Both the position numbers and the translations under genes were made by a program. Shown one piece after another: positions 4,768 through 64,000 of a DNA stretch of 64,000 nucleotides (the first letter of the stretch is position 1; every line of letters begins with the position of its first letter). The notes beneath the pieces are model-generated. The model had not been told where the DNA came from. It saw only the letters and a list, made by a program, of their open reading frames with translations, and did no database searches. Origin of the DNA: an uncultured Phycisphaerales bacterium (GTDB lineage Bacteria > Planctomycetota > Phycisphaerae > Phycisphaerales > SM1A02); NCBI GenBank assembly GCA_949373145.1, contig CASICI010000029.1, positions 1-64,000 of the forward strand, written 5' to 3'.

Positions 4768-6039
4768 CACCAATCCTTCTCAACGGGGGTCTTCTTCCTG
4801 GCGGCTTCGCGAGCCTCGCGTGCGGCGAGAACCTCGCGTCGCTCCTTTTCCTTGTCCCGAATCATCTGAAGCAGGGCTTCAGCCTGTTCACGAGTCATAC
4901 GCACCGGTGCAGCCTCCTTGTTCGCGGAATCTTCGCCTGACTTGGCATCGGATTCCTTCGGTTCCTGCTGGTCCTGTTCTGCTGATCCTGTTCCTGCTGA
5001 TCCTGTTCCTGCTGATCCTGTTCCTGCTGATCCTGTTCCTGCTGATCCTGTTCCTGCTGATCCTGTTCCTGCTGATCCTGTTCCTGCTGGTCCTGTTCCT
5101 GCTGGTCCTGTTCCTGCTGGTCCTGTTCCTGCTGGTCCTGGTTCTGCTGGTCCTGGTTCTGCTGGTCCTGGTTCTGCTGGTCCTGGTTCTGCTGGTCCTG
5201 TTCTGCTGGTCCTGGTTCTGCTGGTCCTGTTCCTGCTGGTCCTGTTCCTGCTGGTCCTGTTCCTGCTGGTCCTGTTCCTGCTGGTCCTGTTCCTGCTGGT
5301 CCTGTTCCTGCTGGTCCTGTTCCTGCTGGTCCTGGTTCTGCTGGTCCTGTTCCTGCTGATCCTGTTCCTGCTGATCCTGTTCCTGCTGCTGTTCTTCCTG
5401 AGTCTCTTCGAGTGCCTTCATGAGTCGATGAGCAAGCTCTGCATTTCGACGAGCATCTCTGGAATCCGGTGAGGCGATGATGGCATCTCTGTAGTGCGAA
5501 AGAGCCTGTTTCAACGCATCAATCGGTTGCTCGAGAGTTTGTGGATCAGCTTGTCCTTCGGAGGCCCTTTCTCTTGATTGGGTGTCGCGTGCGTCCTCCA
5601 CCAGGTCCAAGGCTCTTCGATACGAGACGTTGCCCCGGTTGAACAGAGCGGACTGGGTGATTTTGGGATCGTCTCCCGCCGAGGCACGCTCGAACGCCCG
5701 AGTGGCGACATCCAAAGCACCGGCTCGATACGCGGCGACTCCGAGGTTGTATTGAAGTCGTTCATCAAGAGGTCGTCGGTCACTTGCGGCGATGTACAGA
5801 TCGAGCGCCTCGGGATATCGATCCTCTTGCAGAGACTCTCGTGCCTTCTGCACCAGAAGTTCGATCTCGGTGTTCTGCCAGGTCGACTCCGCGATCGGTT
5901 GCGTCGTGGTGTCGGTGGTCTCTTCCGGGATCTCGATTCGTGGAGTCACCGCGGAGGCATCCCGGGCGGCTGGCTCCTGATTGGGCGCTCCTGCTTGAAC
6001 GGCAAGCAGTGCTGTGAGGATCGTCGTGGTCACGGTCAT
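4767..6039 (-). CDS. BatC-like TPR protein with long Gln/Glu/Asp 15-nt tandem-repeat tract; two 14-nt units break the frame
   Basis: TPR region (LQYNLGVAAYRAGALDVATRAFERA); DQQEQ repeats; if the two 14-nt units were 15 nt, the frame continues to QEPKESDAKSGEDSANKEAAPVRMTREQAEALLQMIRDKEKERREVLAAREAREAARKKTPVEKDW*, whose TGA overlaps the ATG of the next gene. Confidence 0.75.
4971..5390. repeat. 15-bp coding tandem repeat (tcctgttcctgctgg/a and variants; about 28 units)
   Basis: Direct reading; encodes (DQQEQ/DQQNQ)n on the minus strand; 14-nt units near 4977-4990 and 5200-5213. Confidence 0.95.
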
Positions 6040-58105: not shown

Positions 58106-58819
58106 ATGCTTGAGGGTGTTTCCGGCACGACTGACGCTCGCCCTGCCCTCACTCAGGTTGCGGGTGACGCCCGGTTGAAGGTTGGCAAGCAACTCCTGGT
58201 GTCAGGGCGACTTGATGAATCGCTGATCATCTTCGACACCGTGATCCAGGATCGTCCTGACCTCGCCAGAGCGCATTTTCTCAAAGGGATGGCACTTCAC
58301 GGCAAGAAGTCACACGCTCAGGCCCTGTCCCAGTACCTGAAGGCGGAGGCCCTCGAACAGGACTTCGCCGAGTACGGACTCCTCGATTACTACATCGCGT
58401 GGAGTGCGTTCTACGCCGGCGACTCCGAGTTGTCCCGGGTCCGTGTGGAACGCAGCCTGCAGGATGCTCCCGAACAAGCCGACACGACGTTCCTCGCAGG
58501 TCTTCTCGCCTTCAATGACGATCGTCTCGAGGCTGCGGAGGAGTCGTTTCGGCGGGTGCTTGAGTACGCGGCCCTCGAGCCCGAGCCCATCCGAAGCCGG
58601 GAGCTGCGACGTGCCTGGATCAGATTGTCCGATGTTCTGGCTCGTGATGAGCGACAGGATGAAGCCCTTGAGGCCATCACCAATGCCATCCAGATCAGTC
58701 CGGAGTTCGCCGAATCATGGTTTCGAAAGGGGTCGCTGCTTTCCCGGCTCGGGCGTGCGTCGGAGGCTGAAGAGGCTCTGGCACGCTGGCGCGAGCTTGG
58801 TGGGGGAAGTGGATCATGA
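58106..58819 (+). CDS. TPR lipoprotein, probably beginning near 58035 in another frame
   Basis: TPR repeats; upstream NITLFISVLLLAGCERGSET lipobox in a different frame suggests a frameshift near 58100. Confidence 0.75.
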   Translation: MLEGVSGTTDARPALTQVAGDARLKVGKQLLVSGRLDESLIIFDTVIQDRPDLARAHFLKGMALHGKKSHAQALSQYLKAEALEQDFAEYGLLDYYIAWSAFYAGDSELSRVRVERSLQDAPEQADTTFLAGLLAFNDDRLEAAEESFRRVLEYAALEPEPIRSRELRRAWIRLSDVLARDERQDEALEAITNAIQISPEFAESWFRKGSLLSRLGRASEAEEALARWRELGGGSGS

Positions 58820-60573
58820 GCCGTGTCCGCGTCTGGTCATCACGTGTTTCTCTGAAGCTCCTGGGGTCATCCCTCTTTGGAGCTTTCCTTCTGAGTGGAG
58901 GCTGTTCTGACACTGAGGAACACGGTTCATCGTCCGAAGCCTCGGCGCGGACCCTGGACACCGTTCCCTTCGTGTTCAGCGATGTCACTGCCGGATCCGG
59001 CATCGCAGTCGAAACGGTGTCCGGTGACACGCCATCGACTCAGATCCTCGAGGTCAAGGGAGGGGGACTCGCCTTGATCGATTTCGACCAGGATGGCGAC
59101 CGTGATCTCTTCGTCCCCAACGGCGCGACGTTGTCCGATCCGGAGGCAGGGCCCGGTGCCAGACTTTTTCGAAACGACGGTTCGCTTCAGTTCACCGACA
59201 TCACCGAACTCGCGGGCATCACCCACACTCGTTGGTCGTTCGGGACCGCGGTGGGCGACATCGATGCAGATGGTCTCGACGACATCTTCATCGCCTGTTA
59301 CGGCCCTGACGTCCTTTTGAGAAATCGAGGTGATGGCACCTTCGAGGATGTCTCTCTCAGCAGCGGAATCGGTGACTCCGGATGGTCGACCAGTGCGGCT
59401 TTCGGCGATCTCGATCTGGACGGTGACCTTGATCTCTTCGTCACCCGGTACGTCGATTTCGATGCCACGAAGCCCGTGCCCCCGGCACGTTTCAAGGGGA
59501 TCGACGTGGTCAACGGGCCACGTGGGCTTCCATCGCTGTCCGACCTGTTCTACGAGAATGAAGGTGATGGCACCTTCAGGCTTCATCAACCGGGCGACCC
59601 TCTCGGCGATCTGCACCCGAGCTACGGATTGAACGTCGCGATTCTCGACATGAACGATGATGGTCTCATCGATGTGCTGGTTGGAAATGATTCCGAAGCC
59701 AATGATCTCTATCTCAATCGATCGACCGCGGAGGATGGACTCGCCTTCAAGGAGTCCGGGCTCATGTCCGGGCTGGCGCACGATCTCAACGGATACGACC
59801 AGGCCACGATGGGCATGGCGGTCGCCGATGTGAACGGTGACGAGTCCCCGGACATGTTCAGTTCGAATTTCTCGAGTGACTCGAACACGATGCACGTTTC
59901 TAGCGGAGCCGGTTTCTTCGATGATCGAACCAGGCAGTTCGGTCTCGCGCTGGTGAGCCGTCCTTTCCTCGGATGGGCCAGTGGATTCTTCGACTTCGAT
60001 CACGATGGCGATGAGGATCTGCTGGTCGTCAACGGCCATGTCTATCCCCAGGCGACACGTGCCACCATGGATTCCGACTACGAGCAGGCGATCCTTCTGA
60101 TGGAACGGGACGGTGAGCGTTTTCGCCGCATCGAACCTGAAGGCGCCATCGCGGAAGCTCATCGCGATCGCAGTGCCGTGTTCGATGATCTTGATGGAGA
60201 CGGTGACATCGATCTGGTCGTCAGTGAGTTGAACGGTCCGGTGCGCCTGCTTCGAAACGATCTCGATCGTTCAGGCTGGTTGCAGGTCCGGCTCGAAGAT
60301 GACAGGCCCGGCGTTGGGAACAGGCACGGGGTGGGTGCGGTGGTGCGTCTGGAATCCGGTGACTGGTCCGCGATCCGCTGGGTGAGCGGGGGTGGACCGT
60401 TCCAGTCCAACTGGTCGCCCGTCCTTCATTTCGGTCTTCCGGAGGGGTTCGAACGAGGCACGCTGAGCGTGCGCTGGCCGGACGCCGTGGTGGAACGACT
60501 GGAGGTCGGTCCCGACCGTCTGGTCACGGTCGTGCGCGGCTCGATCTCCCGGGGCGTCACAGAATCGGATTGA
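58816..60573 (+). CDS. FG-GAP + ASPIC/UnbV lipoprotein
   Basis: Lipobox FLLSGGCSD; DFDQDGDRDLFVPNG; C-terminal NRHGVGAVVRLESGDWSAIRWVSGGGPFQSNWSPVLHFGLPEGFERGTLSVRWPD. Confidence 0.9.
   Translation: MSRVRVWSSRVSLKLLGSSLFGAFLLSGGCSDTEEHGSSSEASARTLDTVPFVFSDVTAGSGIAVETVSGDTPSTQILEVKGGGLALIDFDQDGDRDLFVPNGATLSDPEAGPGARLFRNDGSLQFTDITELAGITHTRWSFGTAVGDIDADGLDDIFIACYGPDVLLRNRGDGTFEDVSLSSGIGDSGWSTSAAFGDLDLDGDLDLFVTRYVDFDATKPVPPARFKGIDVVNGPRGLPSLSDLFYENEGDGTFRLHQPGDPLGDLHPSYGLNVAILDMNDDGLIDVLVGNDSEANDLYLNRSTAEDGLAFKESGLMSGLAHDLNGYDQATMGMAVADVNGDESPDMFSSNFSSDSNTMHVSSGAGFFDDRTRQFGLALVSRPFLGWASGFFDFDHDGDEDLLVVNGHVYPQATRATMDSDYEQAILLMERDGERFRRIEPEGAIAEAHRDRSAVFDDLDGDGDIDLVVSELNGPVRLLRNDLDRSGWLQVRLEDDRPGVGNRHGVGAVVRLESGDWSAIRWVSGGGPFQSNWSPVLHFGLPEGFERGTLSVRWPDAVVERLEVGPDRLVTVVRGSISRGVTESD
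60525..60573. repeat. 49-bp direct repeat, copy 1 (left boundary of insertion)
   Basis: cacggtcgtgcgcggctcgatctcccggggcgtcacagaatcggattga; 42/49 identical by eye to copy 2. Confidence 0.95.
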
Positions 60574-60575
60574 AT

Positions 60576-63125
60576 CTAAAGTTCGATCATCTTCGGAATA
60601 CTGAGGTATCGGGTGCCGTCGACGCCGCATTCGACCCAAATCAGTCGACCAACAGCATGAGACTGACCAAGAGGCGGATCGTTGACCCTTCGATTCGGGT
60701 TGTTGCGGTAGTCGACGAGATTGATCCACCACATCCGTTTCCGATCGGACGGCCCGACCCGTCCCTCGAGCGGTGCGAGCGTCGTCCCGTCGTAACGGTA
60801 GAGCCGATCGTACGTGAGGCTGCCAACGACGGCGCTCGCGTCGATCGACGTCACACGCTGACGAAGATCCTCGTGGAGCGTGAAGACGACGCTTGACGCC
60901 ACGGCGTCGAGCGTCATCAGTCGGTCCAAGAGCGGGCGCAGCAGTGCGGTTTTAAGGGAGCCGACGATGGGGGGGGCCTTGCGTCTCACACACACGTGTC
61001 GACGGTCGCTCCAACCGCACGGTGGGCCGTCCCAGCGTGTGGGTTCGAGCGCGCGGTAGTCGTCGCCCAGCGTCTTGAAGACCGTACGCTTCGTCGCGGG
61101 TACGGCTTCGTTCCACGCGCGTGTCAGGAGGTCGAGACTGGGGTCGTCGTAGACCAGGTGGTGCGCCACGAGGGAGGCGGTGTCCCCGTCGAGGCAGACG
61201 TAGCACAGGGGGCGTTCGTAGAGCGCGAAGAGCGACCGCCGCAACGCGTCCCGCCCACGCGGCGTCGTCGCGTGGCGTACGTGGTCTGAAACGTCATAGG
61301 GGCCGAAGCGAAGGCGTCCGTCGGACCGAAGTCGGACCGTGAGGATCGGATGCGTTCGAAAGAAGCGATCGATGCGTTCGGGCGTCGCGACGCCGGGCAA
61401 CGCCAACTCGCATGAGTACGGGTGGTACAAGACCGCTTTTATGAAGTTATATCCGAAGAGCCTGGCCAAGGACGGCACTTCCACTCCTAACCGCATCGCC
61501 AGCGCCCGCCACCGCCCAGGGTGATACTTCGATCCGGGCACCGGTATGGGGCAGACGTAGGTCGCCTCGTCGTCGACGACCTCGGCGTCGAAGCGCGGCG
61601 TGCGGCGGTCGACTAACGACGCCACCGTCGGTCGGGCTTCGAGGACCGCGAGGTTGACCCCCGTCCGTTGCGCCAGCTGCATCGCGAGGAGCGAGTGGCC
61701 GCCGAGGGTGAACCAGTCGTCGTGGATCCCGACGCGCTCGACCCCCAGTAACTCTTGCCACACTTCGCACATGGCGGCCTCCTCGGGCGTGCGAGGCGCG
61801 TCGAAGCGCGTGGGCGCTTCGACGTCGGGGAGGGCCGAGCGGTCAACCTTCCCCGTCGCGGTGAGGGGGAACGTCTCGAGCGGATGGATGGCCGACGGCA
61901 CCATGTAGGACGGCAGGCGTTGCGTGAGGAGGGCGCGAAGCGTCGACGCGTCGACGGTGGCGGGCGTGACGTAGGCGACGAGCCGATCGGCGGTGGGGGC
62001 GACCACGACGGCGGCGCCCTCGACGCCGTCGCACGCCGCCAAGCGCCCCTCGACCTCGGCGAGTTCGACGCGATAGCCTCGCACCTTGATCATGCGGTTG
62101 GCGCGGCCGCGCAGTCGGAAGCGCGAGTTGGTCGTCGTCCACTCGGCCAGGTCACCCGTGTCGAAGGGCCAGGCGCCGTCTTCGTCGTCGAGCCCTCCCA
62201 ACGTCAGCCACTCGCGTCCCGCCGTCGCCACGAGGCGTCCCACGACGCCGGGCGTCGTCACGGGCCGACCGTCTTCGTCGTGGATGGCGAGCCCGAAGGC
62301 GGGTTCGGGCGTCCACCCGTCTTGTTCGGCCGAACGAAAGGCCATCCAGAGGCTGCCGCTCTCGGTCTGACCGTAGGCGTCGCGCGCGCCGAGCGCAGTT
62401 CGGAGGGCGTCGTCGGACGGCTCGCCGAAGAGCGCGACGTCGACGTTGGCCAACCACGAGTCGGCGCCGCCGACGTGGCGCGCGTATGAGGGGGTGACGA
62501 AGGCGCGCGCGACCCCCCAGCGTCGGACGAGCGCCGCCATGCGCGCGCCGTCGAGCCACTCGGCCTTGGCGACGACGACCAGGCGGTGGCCGTGGGACAG
62601 CGCGACGAGGTGGTACATCGTCTGGGAATGGCGGATCGAGGACCAGTGGACGGACGGCGCGAGCGCCACCTGCGGTCGCGCTTGGTCGTCGCCCAGTAGC
62701 GCGGTCGGGGTGAACTCAAAGGCCTTGGGACGCCCCGTTGTGCCGCTGGTGCAGAGGACGAGGGCCTCGGCGTCGTCGTCCCAGCGCGCTGGGGGGCGCA
62801 CGTCGGCGGCCGCGTCGGACGGCCAGACGGCCTCGACGACGCCCGCTTTACAAAAGGCCGCCATGGCGTGGCGTCGCTCGGCGGGGTCGGAGGCGTCGAT
62901 CGGGAGGGCGGCCCGCCCCTCGCACCAGGCGGCGACGAGCCAGACGAAGAAGGCGGCGTCGTTGGTGCCGACGAGGGCGACGCGCCCCGGCGGCCTCCGC
63001 CGCAGGGCCCGGCGCGCGCCGCCGACGGCGGCGGCGAACTCGGGGCCCGTGAGGGACCGTTGGGCGTCGACGAGCAAGGGGCCATCGTCGGGCAAGGACA
63101 GAAGCCGTTGCAAGAGGGCGTCCAT
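60576..63125 (-). CDS. Single-module NRPS-like protein: adenylation - carrier (PCP) - condensation-like domain
   Basis: A3 VLCTSGTTGRPKAFEFT, A5 AYGQTESGS, A7 PFDTGDLAEW, A8 FRLRGRANRMIKVRGYRVELAEVE, A10 TATGKVDRSALP; PCP DDWFTLGGHSLLAMQL; C-like VAHHLVYDD (HHxxxD). The ORF opens at GTG 63188; ATG at 63125 (MDALLQRLL) best fits the composition change. Confidence 0.88.
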   Translation of the reverse strand: MDALLQRLLSLPDDGPLLVDAQRSLTGPEFAAAVGGARRALRRRPPGRVALVGTNDAAFFVWLVAAWCEGRAALPIDASDPAERRHAMAAFCKAGVVEAVWPSDAAADVRPPARWDDDAEALVLCTSGTTGRPKAFEFTPTALLGDDQARPQVALAPSVHWSSIRHSQTMYHLVALSHGHRLVVVAKAEWLDGARMAALVRRWGVARAFVTPSYARHVGGADSWLANVDVALFGEPSDDALRTALGARDAYGQTESGSLWMAFRSAEQDGWTPEPAFGLAIHDEDGRPVTTPGVVGRLVATAGREWLTLGGLDDEDGAWPFDTGDLAEWTTTNSRFRLRGRANRMIKVRGYRVELAEVEGRLAACDGVEGAAVVVAPTADRLVAYVTPATVDASTLRALLTQRLPSYMVPSAIHPLETFPLTATGKVDRSALPDVEAPTRFDAPRTPEEAAMCEVWQELLGVERVGIHDDWFTLGGHSLLAMQLAQRTGVNLAVLEARPTVASLVDRRTPRFDAEVVDDEATYVCPIPVPGSKYHPGRWRALAMRLGVEVPSLARLFGYNFIKAVLYHPYSCELALPGVATPERIDRFFRTHPILTVRLRSDGRLRFGPYDVSDHVRHATTPRGRDALRRSLFALYERPLCYVCLDGDTASLVAHHLVYDDPSLDLLTRAWNEAVPATKRTVFKTLGDDYRALEPTRWDGPPCGWSDRRHVCVRRKAPPIVGSLKTALLRPLLDRLMTLDAVASSVVFTLHEDLRQRVTSIDASAVVGSLTYDRLYRYDGTTLAPLEGRVGPSDRKRMWWINLVDYRNNPNRRVNDPPLGQSHAVGRLIWVECGVDGTRYLSIPKMIEL

Positions 63126-63185
63126 TCGACATTTTTTCAAATTCAATTCGTCAAGAGACATCATCGACTCATGCTTCCGAATCTC

Positions 63186-63234
63186 CACGGTCGTGCGTGG
63201 TTCGATTTACTCGGGCGTCACAGAATCGGACTGA
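63186..63234. repeat. 49-bp direct repeat, copy 2 (right boundary of insertion)
   Basis: cacggtcgtgcgtggttcgatttactcgggcgtcacagaatcggactga. Confidence 0.95.
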
Positions 63235-64000
63235 GAAATCCTGCCAGCGTGTTGCCGACCCGGCGGGCCACGCTTCTCTTCAGCCATTCCGACTCTTCGA
63301 TTCGATTCGAACTGTCGATGTAGGTCTCCTGAAGATCCCTGAGCTCCGCGGCGAAGGCGCTGTCGTAGATGATCCCGCCACACTCGAAGTTCAGGTTGAA
63401 ACTTCTTCGATCCAGATTGGCGCTCATCACGATTCCGATCTCACGGTCGATCGTGATCGTCTTGGCGTGGAGCAGGCCTCCGTTGAATTCGTGGATGTCG
63501 ACACCGGCCTTGAGAAGCGGCGCGTAGTTCGAACGACTTGCCGCGGCCACCATCCAGGAGTCGTTTCGGGCTGGTACCACCAGAGTCGTCTGCACACCTC
63601 TTCTGGCGCAGACGCAGAGGTTCTTGATGGTGGTCTCATCCGGAACGAAGTAGGGAGTCGTCAACACCAGTTCATGAGTTGCCTGATGGATGCAGGCCTG
63701 GACGATCTGAGTGGTCGCTTCGTTGTAGAAGTTCGGGCCGGTCGCGATGATCTGTACCGGCAGTCCGTTCTCGCACTTTCTGGGCTGTCGCTTCAGCGGG
63801 GTTTCGGGCAGTGTTCCGGTCTCGAAATGCCAGTCCTCCAGAAAGAGGATCTGCAACTCCTTCGTCGCCGGACCGTCGATTCTGATCGAACAGTCGACCC
63901 ATGGCGCGAAATCGGGCTTGAGTGCGAAGGCTGCTTCGGCCAGGTTGTTCGACCCCGTGTACCCGATCTGTCCGTCGATCACCGCGATTTTTCTGTGGTT
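63218..64000 (-). CDS. Cardiolipin synthase / phospholipase D family protein (5' end beyond window)
   Basis: IGYTGSNNLAEAAF; second HKD motif region LLHAKTITIDREIGIVMSANLDRRSFNLNFE; C-terminal GFLSPIL*. Confidence 0.9.
   Translation of the reverse strand, partial: NHRKIAVIDGQIGYTGSNNLAEAAFALKPDFAPWVDCSIRIDGPATKELQILFLEDWHFETGTLPETPLKRQPRKCENGLPVQIIATGPNFYNEATTQIVQACIHQATHELVLTTPYFVPDETTIKNLCVCARRGVQTTLVVPARNDSWMVAAASRSNYAPLLKAGVDIHEFNGGLLHAKTITIDREIGIVMSANLDRRSFNLNFECGGIIYDSAFAAELRDLQETYIDSSNRIEESEWLKRSVARRVGNTLAGFLSPIL

Follow-up and report, generated by a model that had tools for sequence, protein, structure and literature searches.

Strain-polymorphic insertion of a single gene encoding a divergent NRPS-like enzyme, with a 49-bp target duplication, in an uncultured Phycisphaerales bacterium

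In the present study, we confirmed a strain-polymorphic insertion of a single gene with a 49-bp target duplication, encoding a divergent single-module NRPS-like enzyme, in the genome of an uncultured Phycisphaerales bacterium. The window, which is the whole stretch of 64,000 nucleotides that was analyzed, belongs to contig C29 (64,850 bp) of a MAG comprising 42 contigs (2.10 Mb, 75.5% complete). The inserted segment extends from 60574 to 63185 (2,612 bp) and lies between two 49-bp direct repeats at 60525-60573 and 63186-63234, which are identical at 42 of 49 positions (86%) with a spacing of 2661. We consider it reasonably probable that one foreign gene was indeed inserted, with precise boundaries, at the convergent 3' ends of two genes, with the duplication of 49 bp of the target, and that the product is an A-T-C synthetase. 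The case consists of known kinds of thing, which are well documented here, and proves no new mechanism. Its value lies in the presence of both the occupied and the empty allele of a single-gene gain, with exact boundaries, in one population-level bin, which opens the way in which single genes are captured and the advantage of carrying the enzyme to direct testing, and in an enzyme without close relatives among the collections searched.

The empty allele was found in the same MAG. Contig C6 overlaps the end of C29 through a common flank of approximately 7.4 kb that is approximately 98% identical; the alignment stops at C29 60573 and restarts at 63186, and both pieces end in the identical 49 bp of C6, which represents an empty site with one 49-bp copy at the breakpoint and no insert. 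As read from these two contigs, the locus is polymorphic, with the gene being carried by one haplotype of the MAG and missing from the other. The first-pass annotation had proposed a comparison of related genomes at this junction, and empty sites were found not only in C6, but also in all four of the congeners examined (G001, G002, G003, and G004), which lack the inserted gene at this position.

The 49 bp correspond to the common 3' end of two convergent genes. The left copy encodes the C-terminus and stop of an intact FG-GAP/ASPIC protein (58816-60573, plus strand) and differs from the single empty-site copy at six positions, and the right copy holds, on the minus strand, the stop of a cardiolipin synthase gene (cls; 63218-64000, minus strand), which is cut by the window edge and is intact on the contig (516 aa). 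In C6, G001, and G003, these two genes converge with overlapping 3' ends. The identity of the repeats ends abruptly on both outer sides, and a pattern scan of the whole MAG located the 49-mer only at both ends of the insert and at the empty site. Since the repeat represents overlapping gene 3' ends, is present nowhere else in the MAG, and occurs as a single copy at the empty site, we regard it as a duplicated target and not as the end of a mobile element. A comparison with the empty site indicates that the duplication left both flanking genes intact. The insertion reading is thus supported by the closely matching empty allele with its single copy, by the four empty congeners, by the restriction of the repeat to this locus, and by a deviant composition that is confined to the insert, as described below. 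The empty-site ASPIC allele (L038 8849-8897) has a premature TAG two codons ahead of the usual stop. In the relative G010 (L023 3256-3690), a different small ORF of 144 aa separates the corresponding ASPIC and cls genes, and this junction thus tolerates insertions.

The interval is filled by a minus-strand ORF at 60576-63188, the sole gene of the insert, in agreement with the one minus-strand gene between two 49-bp direct repeats that had been described at first. Its TAG stop codon lies just within the left boundary, ending 2 nt from it, and the ATG candidates are situated approximately 20-25 nt inside the right boundary, which places the stop and start tight against both boundaries and matches the earlier reading of a stop 2-3 nt from the left repeat and a likely ATG close to the right one. 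The second of two adjacent ATGs gives a gene of 861 aa (60576-63161, minus strand), and an in-frame GTG at 63188 would extend the product to 870 aa. The insert contained neither an integrase or transposase domain nor a second gene, and no partner biosynthetic gene adjoins it, as had also been noticed previously; furthermore, no tRNA or Rfam RNA was found near the insert, and a repeat search revealed no attC-like inverted repeat, as expected of an integron cassette, at its ends. A transposon or insertion sequence was rejected as a candidate because the segment has no transposase domain or second gene and its two ends do not form inverted repeats. The arrangement resembles the target-site duplications of insertion elements in having direct target repeats at both ends and a single copy at the empty site; however, the copies at this locus differ from each other, and there is no transposase or terminal inverted repeat. 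A length of 49 bp is also far greater than that of typical transposase duplications.

Judging from its motifs, the product is a single module of the A-PCP-C type in which the principal catalytic motifs are present, the A domain is shortened, and the C tail is eroded or truncated; this enzyme probably activates an acid and couples it to a second molecule. The Pfam matches were AMP-binding, AMP-binding_C, and PP-binding, with the A and PCP families both being above the cut-off (PP-binding at 28.3 bits vs a cut-off of 20.8). The adenylation domain (approximately 61770-63100, minus strand) carries motifs A3 (TSGTTGRPKA), A5 (YGQTE), A7 (TGDL), A8 (GRANRMIKVRGYRVEL), and the A10 lysine in TATGKVDR, which, together with the AMP-binding match, assign it to NRPS adenylation domains; the region near A4 is shortened. 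The peptidyl-carrier domain (approximately 61600-61770, minus strand) is similarly assigned by the phosphopantetheine serine of GGHSLLA, a GGxS site, and by PP-binding. The C-terminal region of 334 aa (60579-61580, minus strand) is shorter than a full C domain and contains HHLVYDDPS (HHxxxDxxS), in which DD is present where HHxxxDG has DG; this motif is situated 180 residues past the carrier GGHS, compared with 167-210 in the NRPSs used for alignment. The A-PCP-condensation-like product of the first-pass annotation was recovered, with its C part carrying HHxxxDxxS.

On its own, the C-terminal region gave no Pfam C-domain match, and a profile comparison returned a probability of only 8%; because neither test recognized a condensation domain in the tail alone, we refer to it only as condensation-like. 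In an AlphaFold model based on an alignment of 44 sequences, the pLDDT was mostly 75-95 in the A and PCP parts, approximately 60-75 in the N-lobe of the tail, and below 50 over most of the remainder, and the best structural matches of the model (the DhbF A-PCP-C fragment and LgrA) extended over essentially its full length. The A-T-C reading is supported by the A and PCP matches above the cut-off, the spacing of HHxxxDxxS, the whole-chain structural matches, and the presence of a PPTase-family gene and a native NRPS in contig C10, and is weakened by the C domain having no Pfam match, the low profile probability, the low confidence in the tail, and the lack of an adjoining partner biosynthetic gene.

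LgrA and the DhbF cross-module fragment, which derive from bacterial modular NRPSs, are similar to the insert product in the motifs and fold of A and PCP and in the A-PCP-C order, whereas the insert product is only approximately 19-23% identical to them in structural alignments and has one module, a shortened A domain, and a truncated or eroded C domain. The fungal single-module A-T-C NRPSs AneB and ThmA share the same domain order, ending in a C domain and lacking a thioesterase (PMC10720950). The C domain of AneB esterifies a terpene alcohol, and two residues of its motif, the second histidine (H794) and the aspartate (D798), are essential (PMC10720950); their counterparts in the insert product are H668 and D672 (861-aa form). 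This likeness was drawn from the motif, which is QHxxxDxxS in AneB and HHxxxDxxS in the insert product, and from the domain order, whereas the C domain of the insert product is shorter and divergent and no terpene gene adjoins it. AneB is the closest functional analogue found, and the analogy supports the mechanism, not membership.

The composition of the insert differs from that of its surroundings. Within the inserted gene, GC increases from 0.59 to 0.73 and GC3 reaches 0.94; both return to the background at the right boundary and fall gradually toward the left boundary, which is the 3' end of the gene. GC3 is 0.84 for the gene vs roughly 0.65-0.77 in neighboring genes, and is 0.85-0.94 in the first 60%, decreasing to 0.66-0.83 toward the 3' end, which bears out the more extreme 5' part reported earlier; the long shadow ORFs noted over the insert are also present and are attributed to its GC-rich composition. 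A check of codon and tetranucleotide usage had been suggested, and, in a comparison covering the window contig, the insert deviated with a GC z of up to +7.4 against the rest of the contig and a GC-corrected tetranucleotide z of up to +5.8, although the background maximum of the latter is equally high and probably corresponds to a 15-bp tandem array at 4961-5388. This array consists of 28.7 copies of the unit GTTCCTGCTGGTCCT, the period of which is a multiple of three, and is possibly coding. Within this part of the contig, the deviation in GC, codons, and tetranucleotides is restricted to the insert. The preferred codons of the inserted gene (CTC, GTC, ACG, and GAC) are unlike those of its neighbors and of the sampled bacterial NRPSs, and codon use in the tail differs from that in the A-PCP part (0/1000 shuffles), which could reflect a composite gene or a gradient.

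No close relatives of the product were found in any collection searched, including viral and genome collections screened with peptide patterns. Among the matches listed from a profile scan of genome contigs, the best bacterial ones were generic NRPSs, mostly with 25-35% identity across the aligned part, and no sampled bacterial NRPS locus was close in codon usage, a comparison that is not diagnostic of the donor. When 393 genomes of the phylum were searched with the C-terminal region, one weak match was obtained, which was taken as chance because the ORFs listed there belong to other genes; in plasmids, this region gave nothing below E 0.1. The capture of an intronless picoalgal (eukaryotic) coding sequence, nearly without flanking DNA and as an exact ORF, by a process that duplicates a 49-bp target appears quite improbable to us.

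The description of the insertion as "very recent" is unsupported, because the repeats are no closer to each other than to the empty allele: in pairwise comparisons, 6-7 of 49 positions differ among the left, right, and empty copies (left vs right, 7/49). These seven differences exceed those of a fresh duplication and weaken the insertion reading. The recent one-gene cassette of the first-pass annotation is thus retained as a single-gene foreign insertion, in view of the empty C6 and congeners, but not as a cassette end, since the repeat is the target, nor as recent. The differences fit a duplication that diverged later or repeats that were unlike from the outset, the gene having arrived together with the version of the site found in another strain. 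In one form of the latter, a circular molecule with the gene and a diverged ASPIC/cls 3' end, either taken from another strain or representing an att-like site, would have crossed over through the 49-bp homology, which would suit the approximately equal divergence of the three copies, and many integrative elements rebuild the 3' end of a gene. A recombinational history is also in line with the overlap of C29 (54839-64850) and C6 (L038), an end-overlapping mosaic in which tracts of 0-1% divergence lie beside tracts of approximately 4-8%; this mosaic is evidence of mixed strains and recombination and suggests exchange between strains. A patch of raised divergence (approximately 7% over 60401-60573) adjoins the insert on the left, and is weak evidence for recombination because similar patches occur elsewhere. 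However, the insert has no integrase or replication gene, the MAG contains no further copy of the site, and the circle would be unusually small, and we therefore treat integration through homology as a possibility of limited weight.

The insert is located 1.7 kb from the contig end in a mixed-haplotype MAG, which also weakens the insertion reading. An assembly error is unlikely. The joining of another organism's DNA into the contig would be in keeping with this location, the end-overlapping contigs, the mixed haplotypes, and the extreme composition, but both junctions would need to be false, a diverged second target copy would not be created on the far side, and the stop and start sit tight at both boundaries; we regard such a chimera as improbable. 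If the gene were instead ancestral, and recombination between the two repeats had removed it from the other haplotype and from the relatives, the divergence of the repeats could simply be old; the foreign composition of the insert, the several losses needed for C6 and the four congeners all to be empty, and the direct overlap of the flanking genes in C6, G001, and G003 make this highly improbable.

In the favored reading of an insertion with target duplication, one foreign coding sequence would have entered the point common to the two convergent gene 3' ends, and the event would have duplicated 49 bp of the target such that both neighbors kept their C-termini. The occupied allele was probably passed between strains by ordinary homologous recombination. 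The gene is downstream of and co-directional with cls, as the first inspection had indicated, the region yielded no sigma-70-like promoter, and the gene is probably read from cls. Its motifs suggest that the A domain activates a carboxylic or amino acid as the adenylate, that the carrier serine, charged by a host phosphopantetheinyl transferase, holds the acyl group as a thioester, and that the C-like domain then transfers this group to an acceptor with an amine or hydroxyl function, using the aspartate and the second histidine of HHxxxD; with an eroded tail, this final transfer step may be weak or lost. Contig C10 carries a PPTase-family gene (above the cut-off) and a native NRPS of the C-A-PCP type, the domains of which were read by eye; the carrier of the insert could, therefore, be activated in this organism. 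The PPTase-family gene is approximately 4 kb from the native NRPS (L002; C-A type), which has two very similar tandem carriers and a C-terminal region that reads as oxidase-like.
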